The position numbers and the translations under genes are program-made. Positions 22,451 to 57,568 of a stretch of DNA of 64,000 nucleotides are shown here, piece by piece; position 1 is the stretch's first letter, and each line of letters begins with the position of its first letter. The DNA comes from Hyphococcus sp. (GTDB lineage Bacteria; Pseudomonadota; Alphaproteobacteria; Caulobacterales; Parvularculaceae): NCBI GenBank assembly GCA_028289605.1, contig JANQON010000009.1, positions 1-64,000 of the forward strand, read 5' to 3'. Below the pieces are notes generated by a model that was not told the origin of the DNA, ran no database searches, and worked only from the letters and a program-made list of their open reading frames with translations.

Positions 22451-22577
22451 CATCCTTCGAGGCTCGCTTCGCTCGCGCCTCAGGATGAGGTGAGAGCATG
22501 CAGCCGCCGCCTATCCTTTCCACACGAACAATCCTCATCCTGAGGCGCTCGCCAGGCGGGCGAGCCTCGAAGGATGG
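22451..22577. repeat. Type A palindromic repeat, head-to-head pair
   Basis: Unit one (22451-22490) runs from CATCCTTCGAGG to CCTCAGGATGAGG with an inner GCTCGCTTCGCTCGC hairpin. Unit two (22533-22577) is the inverted form, CCTCATCCTGAGG to CCTCGAAGGATGG. The same family recurs at 38148-38262, 41493-41604, 49833-50022, 57457-57568 and inside typA. It sits in the divergent dusB/ispDF interval. Confidence 0.85.
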
Positions 22578-23771: not shown

Positions 23772-23816
23772 GAGGGCGAGCAATGTCTGCGTTGCGATTG
23801 ACGTGGTCCCAACTTT

Positions 23817-23904
23817 CCCCGCTCATCCCGGCGCAGGCCGGGACCTCCCGCGGCTGGGTTCGGAGCAAGCGTAACGAGATCCCGGCCTGCGCCGGGATGA
23901 GCGG
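23817..23904. repeat. Type B palindromic repeat pair
   Basis: CCGCTCATCCCGGCGCAGGC and its inverse (GCCTGCGCCGGGATGAGCGG) flank a 37-base spacer. The family core GCTCATCCCGGCG...CGCCGGGATGAGC is a widespread alphaproteobacterial intergenic type and recurs at 30526-30613, 50412-50497 and 50681-50766. Confidence 0.8.
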
Positions 23905-23997
23905 TGTAGGGTGTTATCCATTGACTCCAACTACTCCTCTCAACGCGGACGGAAAAAATGCGGATAGGCTGTGTTTTCCAACAGGAGGCCCCGCCCC

Positions 23998-30486: not shown

Positions 30487-30525
30487 TTTGGCGATCTTAG
30501 GCCTTCGCACGCGGTTTTGCTTTAC

Positions 30526-30613
30526 CCCGCTCATCCCCGCGAAAGCGGGGATCCATTTTCTCCGCGCTCAATTTGATTCGTTGCTGGATTCCCGCTTTCG
30601 CGGGAATGAGCGG
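30526..30613. repeat. Type B palindromic repeat pair
   Basis: CCGCTCATCCCCGCGAAAGC followed by GGGGAT, then after about 33 bases the inverse (TTCCCGCTTTCGCGGGAATG plus AGCGG). Same family as 23817-23904. It fills most of the gap between the terminator at 30486 and the PepSY gene. Confidence 0.8.
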
Positions 30614-30685
30614 AATTAAAAATTTGCCTGAGAAGGCTTACGTGAGGCATCGCATCCCCATTCCCCTAACTCAGATCACCGCCCT

Positions 30686-38147: not shown

Positions 38148-38262
38148 CATCCTTCGAGGCTTTTGCTTTGCAAAAGCACCTCAGGATGAAGCTAACGGGG
38201 TGAAGAGATACGGAAATTCCTCATCCTGAGGCGCCGGCGCAGTCGGCCTCGAAGGACGAGGA
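38148..38262. repeat. Type A palindromic repeat, head-to-head pair
   Basis: Unit one (38148-38189) CATCCTTCGAGGC ... ACCTCAGGATGA with an inner TTTTGCTTTGCAAAAG hairpin; unit two (38219-38262) is inverted, CCTCATCCTGAGGCG ... GCCTCGAAGGAC. The remaining gap to 38584 is noticeably AT-rich and contains no gene that I can support. Confidence 0.85.
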
Positions 38263-41492: not shown

Positions 41493-41604
41493 CATCCTTC
41501 GAGGCGACGCTACGCATTGCGCCTCAGGATGAAGTCAAGAGTTTGCGGAGAATCGGAAATTCCTCATCCTGAGGCGTCGGCGCAGCCGGCCTCGAAAGAA
41601 GAGG
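41493..41604. repeat. Type A palindromic repeat, head-to-head pair
   Basis: Unit one 41493-41532 (CATCCTTCGAGGCG to GCCTCAGGATGA) and inverted unit two 41562-41604 (CCTCATCCTGAGGCG to GGCCTCGAAAG). Located just beyond the 3' end of rpoD. Confidence 0.85.
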
Positions 41605-45727: not shown

Positions 45728-47722
45728 TCAGGCGCACTCAAAATCGGCGTCGCCGACGGCCCGGCACTGCGGCGGAAACCCGAATTCGCGCCAATACGCG
45801 ACCAACCCAAGGTCCTCGGACAGCTGTTTGAACTCCGGCGAGGACCGGAAATGCGAAAATTGGGGCAACCAGAGAATCTCGTAGTCATTGTTCCAATTGT
45901 CGACGGTGAGGTTCTCATAGGCGCGCAGGGTCAACATCGTATTCGCGTGGGAGCGCACTTTGACGTTCTGCTTGTCGCCCCATTCCATGAACTTGTTGAT
46001 ACGGTCCGCCGACGGATTATCCGAGTCCTCAATGGCGGCGATCAGATCGCGATGCGGAAAATTCGCCCACCAGTTCACGGTCCGTGAAATCGTAAAGGCG
46101 AGCAGGCGCTCGCCCTTCCCGAGGAAATACGGGAGATACGCGTCGAAGTCGGAATAGTAGCCGGCTTCCGCGTTGATCGTTGCGTCCGCAATCGCTTTTT
46201 CGGTTTCGCCTTTGATCAGGTAAGAGAGCGATCGATATTTGCGGCAGAGTTTTAACGCATCGTCGATCGCGAGGCATTGATTGAACGCGGCGATGGCCTG
46301 GTCGAAATCCCCCACCGCGAGATAGTCCATGCCGAGCCACAACACCGGATCGGTCGCTTTCGGATCCCGCTCCACGGCTTTGCGCAGATTGTCGATCGAT
46401 TCCCCCCACGGGGTCGGGTAGTGCGTTCGATAGGTCAGGCCAATGACCGCATAGGGCCCCGGCAGGTCGGGATCGATTTCCAGCGCTTTTTTCGCCGCAA
46501 CCAGCGCCATCGCGGAATAATCCCGGTCGAGAATGCCCCAGCTGGTGGCGATGGCGTAAACGCCGGCAAGCCCTTCCCAACCGCGGGCGAAATTCGGATC
46601 GATTTCCACCGCATACTCAAACAAACGCATGGATTCCGCCACATTCGCCTTGCCGCGCGCGAGATAAAGATCGCGCGCTTTGAGATAGGCGTCATAGGCG
46701 TTGAGATTTTCCGTCGCCGGCTTGATCTCAATAGGCGCGTCCTCTTCGATCCCGAGCTCGCTGCGCAAGGCGTCGACCACCGCTGTCGCGATTTCATCCT
46801 GAATTCTGAAAATGTCGGACAAATGGCGGTCGTAGGTTTCCGACCAAAGGTGTTTATCCGTCGTGGCGTCAATCAGCTGCGCGGTAATGCGCACGCGATT
46901 ATTCATCTTGCGGACGCTGCCTTCAAGCACATGGTCGACGTCCAGGCGCTCCGCGATATCGCCAATGCTGAGGACTTCGTTTTTCAACGCGAAGGAAGAC
47001 GTGCGCGAGGCGACCTTCAATCCGTCAACGCGAACGAGCACGTTCAACAACTCCTCGGACAGCCCGTCGGAGAAGTATTCCTGATTGCCTTCCGGCGACA
47101 TGTCCGCAAACGGCAAGACGGCGATGGTCGGCGCGTCGTCTTCGGCGGCTGCAACGCGGACGCCTGACGCTTCAGCGCCGCCGGCGTCGGCCGGGTTCGG
47201 TCTCGCAAAAAGCCAGACGGCCGCGACCACAACAACGGCAAGCGCGACTAAGACGCCGACCTGATAGCGGCGATCGGCGAGAAACCGCTCGACGCCGCCG
47301 GGCGCTTGCTCGTCCTGCGGCATCAGCTCGCCGTCGCCGGAGATTTCGGAAATCGCGTTTAAGAGCGCGTGCAGCTCCGGCGCCGTGTTGTCGCCGCTCC
47401 ATTTGCCGAAATTGATCGTCTGGTACTGGCGGAAACCGAGCGGCGCTTCGGCGTCATTGAGACCTATGGGGATCAGAACCCCTTTGTCGCGGGCGAACAC
47501 CGCCTCGTCCTTGACCCAATCGGACTCGTTGGCGCTCGAAGACCAGGCGACGACAATCGCGTCCGCTTTATGGAGCTGTTGTTCAATGTCCTTCGCGAAA
47601 GCGGCGCCGCCCCGGATATGCCGATCCCACCAGACGGAGTGCCCGCTCGCCGTGAGCGCCTCAGCGAGTTTTTCGATCCTCGGGCGATCATCTCGCGAGT
47701 AACTGATAAAAACCTGCGCCAT
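45728..47722 (-). CDS. TIR - membrane helix - TolB/FlgO-like - TPR protein
   Basis: 664 residues. Residues 1-110 are a TIR domain (VFISYSRDDRPRIEKLAEAL; DWVKDEAVFA, where E73 matches the catalytic glutamate of TIR NADases such as SARM1 WVHKE). A membrane helix follows (about 153-172), then a TolB-like domain (AVLPFADMSPEGNQEYFSDG; EELLNVLVRVDGLKVASRTS; DHVLEGSVRKMNNRVRITAQ) and about 330 residues of tetratricopeptide repeats. This is related to the adenylate-cyclase-associated TolB/TPR proteins, in which a DNA-binding or cyclase domain is often replaced by TIR. Partner and role are unknown. Confidence 0.8.
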   Translation of the reverse strand: MAQVFISYSRDDRPRIEKLAEALTASGHSVWWDRHIRGGAAFAKDIEQQLHKADAIVVAWSSSANESDWVKDEAVFARDKGVLIPIGLNDAEAPLGFRQYQTINFGKWSGDNTAPELHALLNAISEISGDGELMPQDEQAPGGVERFLADRRYQVGVLVALAVVVVAAVWLFARPNPADAGGAEASGVRVAAAEDDAPTIAVLPFADMSPEGNQEYFSDGLSEELLNVLVRVDGLKVASRTSSFALKNEVLSIGDIAERLDVDHVLEGSVRKMNNRVRITAQLIDATTDKHLWSETYDRHLSDIFRIQDEIATAVVDALRSELGIEEDAPIEIKPATENLNAYDAYLKARDLYLARGKANVAESMRLFEYAVEIDPNFARGWEGLAGVYAIATSWGILDRDYSAMALVAAKKALEIDPDLPGPYAVIGLTYRTHYPTPWGESIDNLRKAVERDPKATDPVLWLGMDYLAVGDFDQAIAAFNQCLAIDDALKLCRKYRSLSYLIKGETEKAIADATINAEAGYYSDFDAYLPYFLGKGERLLAFTISRTVNWWANFPHRDLIAAIEDSDNPSADRINKFMEWGDKQNVKVRSHANTMLTLRAYENLTVDNWNNDYEILWLPQFSHFRSSPEFKQLSEDLGLVAYWREFGFPPQCRAVGDADFECA

Positions 47723-47847: not shown

Positions 47848-49815
47848 ATGCCGAAAAACCGGGCACGCCCCGCGCCCATGACGCAACGCACAACCAACCT
47901 GCGCAATATCGCGATTATCGCCCATGTGGACCACGGCAAGACAACGCTGGTGGACGAGATGCTGCGCCAGTCCGGGGCGGTTGCGGCCCACGCCGACATG
48001 GCCGAGCGGGCCATGGATTCCAACGATATCGAGCGCGAGCGCGGGATCACGATCCTGGCGAAATGCACAAGCGTCGTCTGGGGCGGACGGCAAGCCTCAT
48101 CCTTCGAGACGCCCGATCGCCTTCACCCTGAGGGGCGCGGCAGCGCCGTCACGAAGGGCGAAGGCGATCGGGCTCCTCAGGATGAAGAGATAAGGATCAA
48201 CATCGTCGACACCCCCGGTCACGCCGATTTCGGCGGCGAAGTGGAGAGGATCCTGTCCATGGTGGACGGCTGTCTCCTACTCATCGACGCCGCCGAGGGG
48301 CCGATGCCGCAGACCAAGTTCGTTTTGTCCAAGGCGCTGGCGCTCGGCCTGAAGCCGATTGTCGTCCTGAACAAGGTCGACCGGCCGAACGCAGACCCCG
48401 ACGCGGCGCTGGACGCCGCGTTCGATCTCTTCGCCGCCCTCGGCGCCAATGACGAACAGCTCGATTTCCCGTCGCTCTATGCCGCGGGCCGCGACGGCTG
48501 GGCGGCGCGGTCACTCGATGAGCCGCGCGAAAATCTGAACGCGCTTTTCGAAACGGTGGTGGCGCACGTACCGCCGCCGCAGGTGTCAGGCGATGAAACA
48601 GAGCCATTCGCGATGTTGGCGACAACGCTGGAAGCGGATCCCTATCTCGGCAGATTGCTCACGGGCCGGATCGTCGCCGGCGCGGCGAAGCCCGGCGTCA
48701 CAATGAAAGCGCTCTCGCGCGACGGCGCGCTCGTGGAACAGGCGCGCGTGTCGAAAGTCCTCGCTTTCCGCGGCCTCAAACGCCAACCGGTCGACGAAGC
48801 GCTGCCCGGCGACATCGTGGCGATCGCCGGTTTCACAAAAGCGTCCGTGTCCGACACGATTTGCGCGCTCGAATGCGACAAGGCGCTGCCCGCGCAGCCG
48901 ATCGATCCGCCGACGCTCTCGATCACCATCGCCGCCAACGACTCCCCGCTCGCCGGGCGCGAGGGCGATAAGGTTCAGTCCCGCGTCATCCGCGAACGCC
49001 TCCTGCGCCAGGCGGAAGGAGACGTCGCCATCACGGTCACGGAAACCGCTTCGAAAGACGCCTTCGACGTCGCCGGCCGCGGCGAATTGCAGCTCGGCGT
49101 GTTGATCGAAAACATGCGCCGCGAAGGATTTGAGCTTGCCGTCTCCCGTCCGCGGGTTGTGACGCGCACGGACGAAGGCGGAAAGCTGCTGGAGCCCATC
49201 GAAGAAGTCGTGATCGATGTGGACGACGAATATTCCGGCGTCGTCATCGAAAAGCTGTCGCAAAAGAAAGCCGAGCTGGCGGAGATGAATCCGGCAGGCG
49301 CGGGCAAGACCCGCATCGTCATGCATGCGCCGTCGCGGGCGCTGATCGGCTATCACGGCGAGTTCCTCACCGACACGCGCGGCACCGGGGTCATGAACCG
49401 GTCCTATCTTGAGCACGGGCCCCATAAGGGTCCGATCGAAGGCCGGCGCAACGGCGTTCTTATCTCCAACGGCGACGGAACCGCGGTTCCTTACGCTCTT
49501 TGGAACCTCGAAGAGCGCGGCGTCATGTTCATCTCCCCGGGCGAGCCGGTCTATGAAGGCATGATCATCGGCGAAAACGCGAAGCCTGAAGATCTCGATG
49601 TCAATCCGTTGAAAGCCAAGCAGCTCACCAATATCCGCGCCGCCGGCAAAGACGAGGCGGTGCGCTTAACCCCGCCGCGCCGCCTGACGCTGGAACAGGC
49701 GATCAGCTATATCGACGAAGACGAGCTTGTCGAGGTCACCCCGAAATCCGTCCGGTTACGGAAGGTTGCCCTGAAACCGCATTTGCGCAAGCGCCGCGCC
49801 AAAGAGACGGCTTGA
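47848..49815 (+). CDS. typA: Ribosome-associated GTPase TypA/BipA with in-frame repeat insertion
   Basis: 655 residues; the usual length is about 605. LRNIAIIAHVDHGKTTLVDEM (G1), RERGITILAKC (switch I), RINIVDTPGHADFGGEVERI (G3), NKVDRP (G4), then domains II, III, V and the TypA C-terminus (GQRRNGVLISNGDGTAVPYALW-like GRRNGVLISNGDGTAVPYAL). Residues 81-114 between VVWGG and RINIVDTPG have no counterpart in E. coli TypA and are encoded by a palindromic repeat (separate entry). An ATG at 47878 is an alternative start. TypA assists ribosome assembly and stress survival. Confidence 0.92.
   Translation: MPKNRARPAPMTQRTTNLRNIAIIAHVDHGKTTLVDEMLRQSGAVAAHADMAERAMDSNDIERERGITILAKCTSVVWGGRQASSFETPDRLHPEGRGSAVTKGEGDRAPQDEEIRINIVDTPGHADFGGEVERILSMVDGCLLLIDAAEGPMPQTKFVLSKALALGLKPIVVLNKVDRPNADPDAALDAAFDLFAALGANDEQLDFPSLYAAGRDGWAARSLDEPRENLNALFETVVAHVPPPQVSGDETEPFAMLATTLEADPYLGRLLTGRIVAGAAKPGVTMKALSRDGALVEQARVSKVLAFRGLKRQPVDEALPGDIVAIAGFTKASVSDTICALECDKALPAQPIDPPTLSITIAANDSPLAGREGDKVQSRVIRERLLRQAEGDVAITVTETASKDAFDVAGRGELQLGVLIENMRREGFELAVSRPRVVTRTDEGGKLLEPIEEVVIDVDDEYSGVVIEKLSQKKAELAEMNPAGAGKTRIVMHAPSRALIGYHGEFLTDTRGTGVMNRSYLEHGPHKGPIEGRRNGVLISNGDGTAVPYALWNLEERGVMFISPGEPVYEGMIIGENAKPEDLDVNPLKAKQLTNIRAAGKDEAVRLTPPRRLTLEQAISYIDEDELVEVTPKSVRLRKVALKPHLRKRRAKETA
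48098..48185 (+). repeat. Type A palindromic repeat inserted in frame within typA
   Basis: The ends are the type A ends: CATCCTTCGAGAC (48098-48110) and CTCCTCAGGATGA (48173-48185). Inside are perfect inverted arms GCCCGATCGCCTTC (48111-48124) and GAAGGCGATCGGGC (48160-48173) around a second, smaller hairpin region. All codons are open, adding about 34 residues (RQASSFETPDRLHPEGRG, then SAVTKGEGDRAPQDEE) to the GTPase domain. It is the only type A copy in a gene in this window. Confidence 0.85.
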
Positions 49816-49832: not shown

Positions 49833-50022
49833 TCATCCTTCGAGACAGCCTATCAACCCCCTCTGAGGATGTCTCAGGATTCGCCAAGCCCTCATCCTGA
49901 GGTGCAAACGCGCAGCGTTTGCCTCGAAGGACGGCCGCGGGCGTTGCGCTTTGCCGCCATCCTTCGAGGGTCAAACGGGGCCCCAACCCCGTTTGACGCT
50001 ACGCAAAAGCACCTCAGGATGA
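49833..50022. repeat. Three type A palindromic repeat units
   Basis: Units at 49833-49880 (CATCCTTCGAGAC to CTCAGGAT), 49890-49933 (inverted, CTCATCCTGAGG to CCTCGAAGGACGG, with inner GCAAACGCGCAGCGTTTGC) and 49958-50022 (CATCCTTCGAGGG to ACCTCAGGATGA, with inner TCAAACGGGG...CCCCGTTTGA). They lie directly after typA. Confidence 0.8.
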
Positions 50023-50411: not shown

Positions 50412-50497
50412 TCCGCTCATCCCGGCGAAGGCCGGGATCTCAGGCGGCGTACTCGGAGTATGTTGCACGAGGTCCCGGCTTTCGCCGGGATGAGCGG
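50412..50497. repeat. Type B palindromic repeat pair
   Basis: TCCGCTCATCCCGGCGAAGG and its inverse (GGCTTTCGCCGGGATGAGCG) separated by about 38 bases. Same family as 23817-23904. Confidence 0.8.
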
Positions 50498-50570
50498 AAT
50501 TTGGTTTTTGTTATGGTGCGAAGACTTCCCGTTCAGAGACAAGTTGACGACTCAAAAGAGTTTACGCACT

Positions 50571-50633
50571 TCCACCTCCCCCTTGAGGGGAGGTCGAAAT
50601 TTGCGACTGCAAATTTCGGGAGGGGGTTGTGCG
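50571..50633. repeat. Type D palindrome (CCTCCCCCTTGAGGGGAGG with AAATTTGC hairpin)
   Basis: CCTCCCCCTTGAGGGGAGG, then GAAATTTGCGACTGCAAATTTC, then GGGAGGGGGT. The outer CCTCCCCC and GGGAGGGGG arms and the inner perfect AAATTTGC/GCAAATTT arms make a compound hairpin. Only one copy is seen in this window. Confidence 0.65.
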
Positions 50634-50680
50634 AGGGAAAATGAGCATTCGGAGTGCGCAAACACCAGTGCGCCCCCCCA

Positions 50681-50766
50681 CCCGCTCATCCCGACGAAAG
50701 TCGGGATCTCCTGCAGCACACGCTGAGTTTGCCGACAGAGATCCCGGCTTTCGCCGGGATGAGCGG
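50681..50766. repeat. Type B palindromic repeat pair
   Basis: CCGCTCATCCCGACGAAAGT and inverse (CCGGCTTTCGCCGGGATGAG). Same family as 23817-23904; it ends 41 bases before the stop of the GatB/YqeY gene. Confidence 0.8.
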
Positions 50767-50806
50767 AATTTGTTGTAGAGAAAAACAGCTGCGCGAAGGC
50801 GCCGCC

Positions 50807-57456: not shown

Positions 57457-57568
57457 CCTCATCCTGAGGCGCTTTTGCAAAGCAAAAGCCTCGAAGGATG
57501 GCGGCAAACATCCGCGCCTGCGGCCATCCTTCGAGGCCAACGCTGCGCGTTGGCGCCTCAGGATGAGG
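57457..57568. repeat. Type A palindromic repeat pair with flanking type B-like halves
   Basis: Units 57457-57501 (CCTCATCCTGAGGCG to CCTCGAAGGATGG, inner CTTTTGCAAAGCAAAAG) and 57523-57568 (CCATCCTTCGAGGCC to GCCTCAGGATGAGG, inner CCAACGCTGCGCGTTGG). Diverged type B words (GCCGGCGAAAGCCGGCATCC at 57370-57389 and CCCCGGCTTTCGCCGGGGAT at 57640-57659) flank the pair. Together they fill 57340-57677; no gene is seen there. Confidence 0.8.

Follow-up and report, generated by a model that had tools for sequence, protein, structure and literature searches.

The window analysed here, a stretch of 64,000 nucleotides, comprises bases 1-64000 of contig C17 in the 4.29 Mb genome of Hyphococcus sp. (the host, G000), and the element in question is a palindromic repeat of 92 nt that lies in frame inside typA, the gene for the translational GTPase TypA/BipA. 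The gene, an open reading frame (ORF) on the forward strand, and the parts of the element are as follows.

47848..49815, + strand: typA, translational GTPase TypA/BipA (open ORF, TIGR01394, PDB alignments, sole genome match at E <= 1e-100)
48096..48187, + strand: in-frame nested palindromic element in typA, 92 nt, located past switch I and ahead of DTPGH, in a turn that joins two strands
48096..48111, + strand: outer unit, 5' end CTCATCCTTCGAGACG, which reads SSFET
48112..48124, + strand: variable arm CCCGATCGCCTTC, perfect complement of 48160-48172
48125..48163, - strand: inner unit, inverted, ACCCTGAGG - GGCGCGGCAGCGCC - GTCACGAAGGGCGAAG; its 5' side reads HPEG and its last 4 nt overlap the 3' arm
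48160..48172, + strand: variable arm GAAGGCGATCGGG
48173..48187, + strand: outer unit, 3' end CTCCTCAGGATGAAG, which reads APQDE

The typA ORF (47848-49815) is open over 655 aa, is the only typA of the host genome, and matches the TIGR01394 equivalog model at 886.8 bits against a cut-off of 757.3, with the profile covered from 1 to 594 of 594. Since the TypA proteins of relatives mostly begin at MTQ, the true start may be at 47878. The residues of the GTPase motifs HVDHGKTT, DTPGH and NKVD stand in invariant or nearly invariant columns of 35 TypA sequences, which agrees with the claim of the first-pass annotation, made from the letters alone, that all other TypA motifs are intact. Residues 17-79 and 114-650 align to solved TypA with the insert skipped (two PDB alignments of eight hits). 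The ratio of nonsynonymous to synonymous change (dN/dS) against five relatives is 0.07-0.09, pointing to purifying selection, and in a TypA tree built with the loop left out the host branch measures 0.091 against an end-branch median of 0.087. In this tree G018, G021 and G020 form the moderately supported (85/76) sister group of the host.

In the insert itself the outer unit, CTCATCCTTCGAGACG ... CTCCTCAGGATGAAG, encloses two perfectly complementary arms of 13 nt, and an inverted second unit, ACCCTGAGG ... GTCACGAAGGGCGAAG, occupies their loop. The folding of its DNA has a z of -5.41, none of 200 shuffles being as stable, and at E <= 1e-3 the host genome contains 15 other matches to the insert, 70-86% identical (the match list has 17 rows, two being the typA copy itself on either strand). 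Together with the open frame, these results uphold the initial claim that a palindromic repeat lies in frame within typA. The extent first given, 48088..48189, was right as to location, the repeat proper being the 92 nt from 48096 to 48187, while the estimate of about 34 added residues was too high: the host TypA turn is 40 residues long, a gain of 30 over the 10-residue turn of most relatives. AlphaFold2 models residues 81-111 as an unstructured loop (predicted local distance difference test, pLDDT, about 28) that links strands 73-78 and 115-121 directly before DTPGH. The segment is thus predicted to be disordered between two strands, and not the surface hairpin for which a protein model had been suggested as a check, the alignment behind the model being shallow. 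The same turn is lengthened in eukaryotic eEF2.

The gene was found in 27 of 28 genomes of the genus, and the insert is absent from TypA in 26 of these 27. The turn has 10 residues in 19 of the 26 relatives (for example VWEKSENPIR), 13 in G019 and 15 in G022, and 18-28 residues with GGQ-containing expansions in G018, G021, G011, G017 and G007. Comparison with relatives, as first suggested, shows that only the host turn matches a repeat among the 28 turns of these genomes (G007 contributes two). The expanded turns were considered as decayed repeat copies and rejected, having neither motif nor BLAST match. At the level of the family, 59 of 62 genomes proved to have TypA, the best 30 of 59 serving as loci, and no family-A motif (family A being the repeat of the typA insert) occurred in the 72 readable turns of 86 further TypA loci, one of which repeats G002 and 14 of which gave no readable turn. 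A GREGGQ, EGGQ or EGGR-like motif recurs in the turn expansions of L019, L020, L021, L022, L044 and L377, and GGQ-type expansions span two clades of the genus and one other genus of the family.

Within the host genome the two end motifs of family A are frequent: CCTCAGGATGA occurs 67 times against 0 for its reversed control and CCTCAGGAYGAAG 48 times against 1. The typA copy belongs to a nested subtype marked by GAGACG, whose matches lie elsewhere in the host genome, outside the other clusters of the window. Five such clusters share the end motifs with it and belong mostly to a sister subtype, GAGGC, built of two hairpins and a spacer. They are listed here without strand.

22453..22574: two-hairpin array, GAGGC subtype, between genes save for overlaps with the ends of stop-to-stop ORFs
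38150..38256: two-hairpin array between genes, GAGGC subtype
41495..41574: copy between genes, GAGGC subtype
49836..50022: several copies clustered between genes, directly after the typA stop
57459..57566: intergenic two-hairpin array, GAGGC subtype

The copies at 22453, 38150, 41495, 49836 and 57459 are all missing from the genome matches to the typA insert. The kinship first drawn between the insert and these copies therefore holds for the end motifs and fails for the subtype. One window copy compared with plasmids gave partial matches in five records, from Rhizobium and Methylobacterium.

Other nested copies have the layout of the typA insert with different arms, and in one case (L169:1510-1633, about 168909-169032 of contig C14) a third unit lies inside the loop of the inner unit. 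Nested copies also lie within longer palindromes, the flanks pairing over 20 bases in L164 and 27 in L176; 11 of 62 nested copies have flanks of at least 9 paired bases, compared with 0.36% of re-paired flanks. A similar flank test on 'single' copies (55/90 vs 3.9%) was discarded, as it counts halves of dimers and of nested copies. A triple-nested copy at L176:1541-1643 (about 135440-135542 of C17) is set in the tip of a palindrome that is long, AT-rich and, by eye, terminator-like. At least one of the six frames is open in 56 of 59 nested copies (three with N dropped), and the element is not built to be coding.

The repeat is widespread in the genus: the 92-nt reference matches 19 of 28 genomes, with at least 17 matches in each of eight (G000, G002, G004, G005, G008, G019, G025 and G027) and none among the matches listed in the remaining nine. 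In a sample of 200 genomes across the order, scored for at most four candidates per genome, 31 genomes from 13 of 41 genera match the reference; outside the genus, near-full-length nested matches occur only in G048 and G033, of the same family, among the matches listed, the others being partial. Several contigs of G019 end in copies of the element (L234, L235, L236), so these repeats interrupt assembly and the counts of copies are probably too low.

The first-pass annotation had proposed looking for copies in other reading frames, and these exist in valS of the host and in glyS, pdhB and pdhC of relatives. Scanning the window and 31 fetched stretches of the host genome (one of which gave none) yielded 39 repeat clusters. 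Two of them, those of typA and valS, fall within long ORFs (675 and 974 aa from stop to stop) whose composition is coding-like. Another five fall within stop-to-stop ORFs of 137-180 aa: four were dismissed for their composition, and the fifth, L158, has a weakly coding-like composition and no Pfam match. Of 100 loci fetched from relatives, 95 contained a total of 103 clusters, and among these glyS of G019 and pdhB of G025 were clear further coding cases. These loci were chosen among the matches listed, so that in-gene copies are undercounted, and PdhB and PdhC of G019 were missed there. Two candidates were rejected as coding copies: L221, where a histidine kinase domain is present and the element precedes the likely start, and L193, an ORF of 231 aa with no Pfam match.

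Host ValS (P0002) passes NF004349 and TIGR00422, and the host genome has one valS match. Its loop after LGWP reads LGWPDADPSLHPEERGD...GAAPQGEANLLAKHYP and belongs to family A. A short loop, for example LGWPEETPELKKHYP, is found in 19 of the 24 ValS genes read (23 genomes) and one four residues longer in G003; the other four genes carry inserts of three kinds, family A in the host, family B (PPLAGEVSAKPTEGV...) at the same loop in G020 and G011, and palindrome C (PLPLGGEGQGVRG...LTPDPSPAGGRGE) in G019. Of the 28 genomes, 23 contain family B as a repeat, while the host has no match to it; the G011 copy matches that of G020 at E 9e-30. Palindrome C matches its own reverse complement at E 3e-10 and is a candidate repeat family on its sequence. 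A B-like peptide (PPPLAGEVAAKPSEGG) was seen by eye at a second ValS site in G015 (L305).

In GlyS, a single loop after MGRYY contains an element in 6 of 25 genes read (A in G019, G011, G015 and G007; B in G005 and G016); one further loop has an unclassified insert (G014) and 18 are short. The PdhB linker bears family A in 5 of 27 printed (G025, G019 and G018, more weakly G011 and G008), and the PdhC linker bears A in three (G019, G015, G016) and B in two (G002, G024) of 14 printed. The PdhC ORFs match the dihydrolipoamide acetyltransferase model TIGR01349, the two longest above cut-off. Across the genus this amounts to 14 family-A exons in TypA, ValS, GlyS, PdhB and PdhC, and G019 alone carries such inserts in four core proteins. 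Rows from G011 (7% contamination) and G007 (2%) may mix species. Insert-bearing ValS and GlyS are not grouped on their trees, as with G000 (A), G020 (B) and G021 (empty), which are nearest kin for ValS, and Fitch counts made on hand-entered topologies, several of whose forks are weak, put the changes in insert presence at 4 for ValS and 5 for GlyS; the GlyS tree is without L334, L336 and L342, where the gene was not found by pattern.

Three observations on these genes stand by themselves. Versions with and without the insert occur in one genome for ValS or GlyS (L292 and L315 in G011; L323 and L344 in G007), with contamination as a possible cause. The PdhB linker of G027 (L353) has a weak BLAST match (E 2e-4) to a window copy and is possibly a family-A copy in decay, which would place it midway between a repeat and an ordinary linker. 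Two PdhB matches of nearly equal strength occur in the host (L351 on C15 and L374 on C18), neither with a repeat.

In all 14 family-A exons the two ends are translated as P[QP][DGN]E and HPE. At each end one of the remaining frames holds TGA, and the third is open but yields LRM or ILR. Over 18 exons, not all independent, the net charge of the used frame runs from -8 to +2 and that of the other frames from -1 to +20. A filter for soluble, disordered segments is supported by this pattern and is not proven.

We propose that the typA segment is very probably a copy of a non-autonomous palindromic repeat that was inserted into the gene and is translated as part of the protein. Palindromes of several families would insert widely, and most copies landing inside genes would be lost; the survivors would be those in length-tolerant loops, with a stop-free, acidic-to-neutral frame that yields a disordered segment. 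If survivors are disordered and sit in tolerant loops, the added residues would be mostly neutral filler. The in-frame copies in further core genes support the suggestion, made at the outset, that mobile palindromes can be a source of protein segments.

Several results weigh against this proposal or narrow it. The typA copy is at best 83% identical to a near-full-length copy elsewhere in the host, so its insertion would not be fresh, and because the kin G018 and G021 already have longer turns, the ancestral site was not clean. No target duplication was seen by eye at inserted copies, and this possible trace of insertion was given up. The Y1-type transposase family PF01797 has 0 matches in the host genome, with 6 of 14 control genomes positive (other transposases were not searched). 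Nested copies have a mean of 2.05 open frames of six, hardly more than the 1.83 of shuffled copies, and the charge preference is confounded, the other frames being Arg-rich through GC-rich coding flanks. Synonymous distances in the typA pairs used for dN/dS are 0.92-1.26, near saturation, and the AlphaFold2 model, built on 35 sequences, is poor in the C-terminal part too. As for the wider set, the PdhB inserts of G011 and G008 were assigned to family A by weak matches (E about 6e-5), palindrome C has one partial second copy among 386 sequences, and the GlyS and PdhB inserts of G011 match family-A copies of other genomes (E 2e-13 and 7e-5), yet that genome has no match to the 92-nt reference.

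The alternatives fare worse. The long turn might be an ordinary expansion of this lineage whose likeness to the repeat is accidental, as five other genomes of the genus have clearly expanded TypA turns without any repeat, but the segment is 85% identical over 88 nt to a repeat copy of another genome (E 8e-22 in a small reference set) and has its 15 matches in the host, whereas the other 27 turns match nothing; this sequence match excludes the explanation in practice. Hardly more credible is that typA is decaying or that the insert is an assembly artefact. The repeat is indeed multi-copy, and contigs of the relative G019 end in such copies; against this, the ORF and GTPase motifs are intact, dN/dS is low and the branch length normal, the sole valS, an indispensable gene, also carries an element, and the pattern recurs in separately assembled genomes. 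Removal of the element before the protein is used, in the manner of an intron or by processing, is slightly less far-fetched, and a strong hairpin with defined ends speaks for it; it would make needless the kept, stop-free frame of typA and of the 13 other family-A exons, and no Rfam family matches anywhere in the window at the gathering threshold.

We give somewhat more room, while still holding it improbable, to the idea that the inserts are adaptive, the loop altering ribosome binding, regulation or stability of TypA and the synthetases, or the mRNA hairpin tuning translation. Different families refill the same loops, and the typA hairpin is still strongly paired, its variable arms pairing perfectly. 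The sequence nevertheless varies freely between species, for each protein most of the genes read lack the element, the segment is predicted to be disordered, and tolerance alone accounts for the use of the same loops.

If the typA segment is an inserted and translated repeat copy, a broader and distinctly more tentative reading, to which we give less than even credence, is that certain core proteins have standing entry ports (the loops of TypA, ValS and GlyS and the linkers of PdhB and PdhC) that are repeatedly entered, left and refilled by unrelated palindromes, with units inserting into hairpin tips. That insertion would favour the tips of existing hairpins also belongs to the main proposal, as its weaker part; it is suggested because many copies sit inside other palindromes, and the paired flanks of nested copies fit it. 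In typA of the kin G018 a small palindrome, GGCCGCC-AA-GGCGGCC, lies at the exact insert spot, a hint of a hairpin-tip target that is suggestive only. Were the entry-port reading true, intergenic repeats would be a general supply of disordered protein segments; were insertion into hairpin tips true, it would explain the nested palindromes, and units may be directed to DNA hairpins inside genes.

Two other features of the window may be recorded. A different small palindrome family (CGCTCATCCCGGCGAAGGCCGGGATC...) occurs in intergenic pairs at 23810-23913, 30522-30617 and 50412-50767; its palindromes are reminiscent of CGTC-tagged repetitive extragenic palindromes (REPs). The ORF 45728-47722 on the reverse strand, adjoining typA, begins MAQVFISYSRDDRPRIEKLAEAL and resembles, by eye, a TIR domain coupled to a membrane segment and repeats.

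Literature searches on TypA/BipA insertions, or on palindromes in Parvularcula, Marinicaulis or Hyphococcus, gave nothing on the typA insert among the matches listed; searches with the repeat letters gave unrelated primers and probes among the matches listed, judged by title and start of abstract; and a text search for 'nested palindromic' repeats with related terms gave none. The comparisons that follow draw on excerpts of the papers cited. The GTAG and CGTC classes of REP consist of short palindromes, many of them joined head to head as dimers and some lying within larger palindromes (Di Nocera et al. 2013, PMC3733652). They occur inside ORFs, including those of tRNA synthetases; the recB genes of two Xanthomonas species carry different REPs at roughly one position; CGTC REPs have no dedicated transposase; and neutral insertion into flexible linkers or loops has been proposed (PMC3733652). 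The repeats described here are like them in being short palindromes, in their nesting in larger palindromes and in having copies in ORFs that include tRNA synthetases. A CGTC REP consists of a stem of 8-9 bp, a loop of 4-5 bp, an unpaired CGTC motif and a short tail (PMC3733652), whereas our units have long variable arms and, by eye, ends of CTTC...GAAG; TypA, PdhB and PdhC are not among the REP carriers named in the excerpted main text of that paper. REPs mobilised by RAYT (REP-associated tyrosine transposase) are marked by a Y1-type transposase, and the lack of PF01797 matches sets the host apart from them.

The enterobacterial RU/ERIC elements are small, mobile repeats whose open frames are joined in phase to other reading frames (Delihas 2007, PMC2759123). 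In the excerpt their loci are mainly annotated as small, membrane or hypothetical, whereas the inserts here lie in internal loops of single-copy core enzymes. The alphaproteobacterial CIR of Caulobacter (Chen and Shapiro 2003) is about 110 nt long, with two hairpin arms and a linker, contains GANTC and has stops in all six frames, as excerpted from PMC2229807. It resembles our family in size, in its arms with a linker and in its host class, and differs in that few copies here contain GANTC (3 of the 62 nested, 2 of the 90 single), while an open frame is found in nearly all nested copies. Miniature inverted-repeat transposable elements (MITEs) of Coxiella are the subject of PMC5896051, likewise excerpted.

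The closest parallel is with the Rickettsia palindromic elements (RPE; Ogata, Claverie), which are about 105-146 bp long and occur between genes as well as in frame inside conserved genes, and of which one, in guanylate kinase, is reported to be translated in an active enzyme of changed substrate affinity (excerpts of PMC2229807 and PMC3733652). The likeness to RPE noticed at the start holds in the sense that our family works like them, a likeness by description: in both systems palindromes lie between genes and in frame inside conserved alphaproteobacterial genes. By their descriptions the two are set apart by the non-rickettsial genus, by the carriers TypA, ValS, GlyS, PdhB and PdhC, by the nested units and by the filling of one loop by unrelated families. 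Since related species have unrelated repeats in the same loops, the genus can serve as a natural series in which to ask at what point repeat DNA turns into protein, which frames persist and whether the extra residues are neutral, with insert-free relatives and gene trees on hand and in enzymes that a cell is not expected to lose. The kind of phenomenon is already known from RPE and intragenic REPs. As far as the literature searches reach, three things look new: the nested repeat family itself, the presence of such inserts in TypA, PdhB and PdhC, and the repeated occupation of one loop by unrelated families in different members of a genus. With them a genus of the Parvularculaceae joins the bacteria whose palindromic repeats become parts of proteins.

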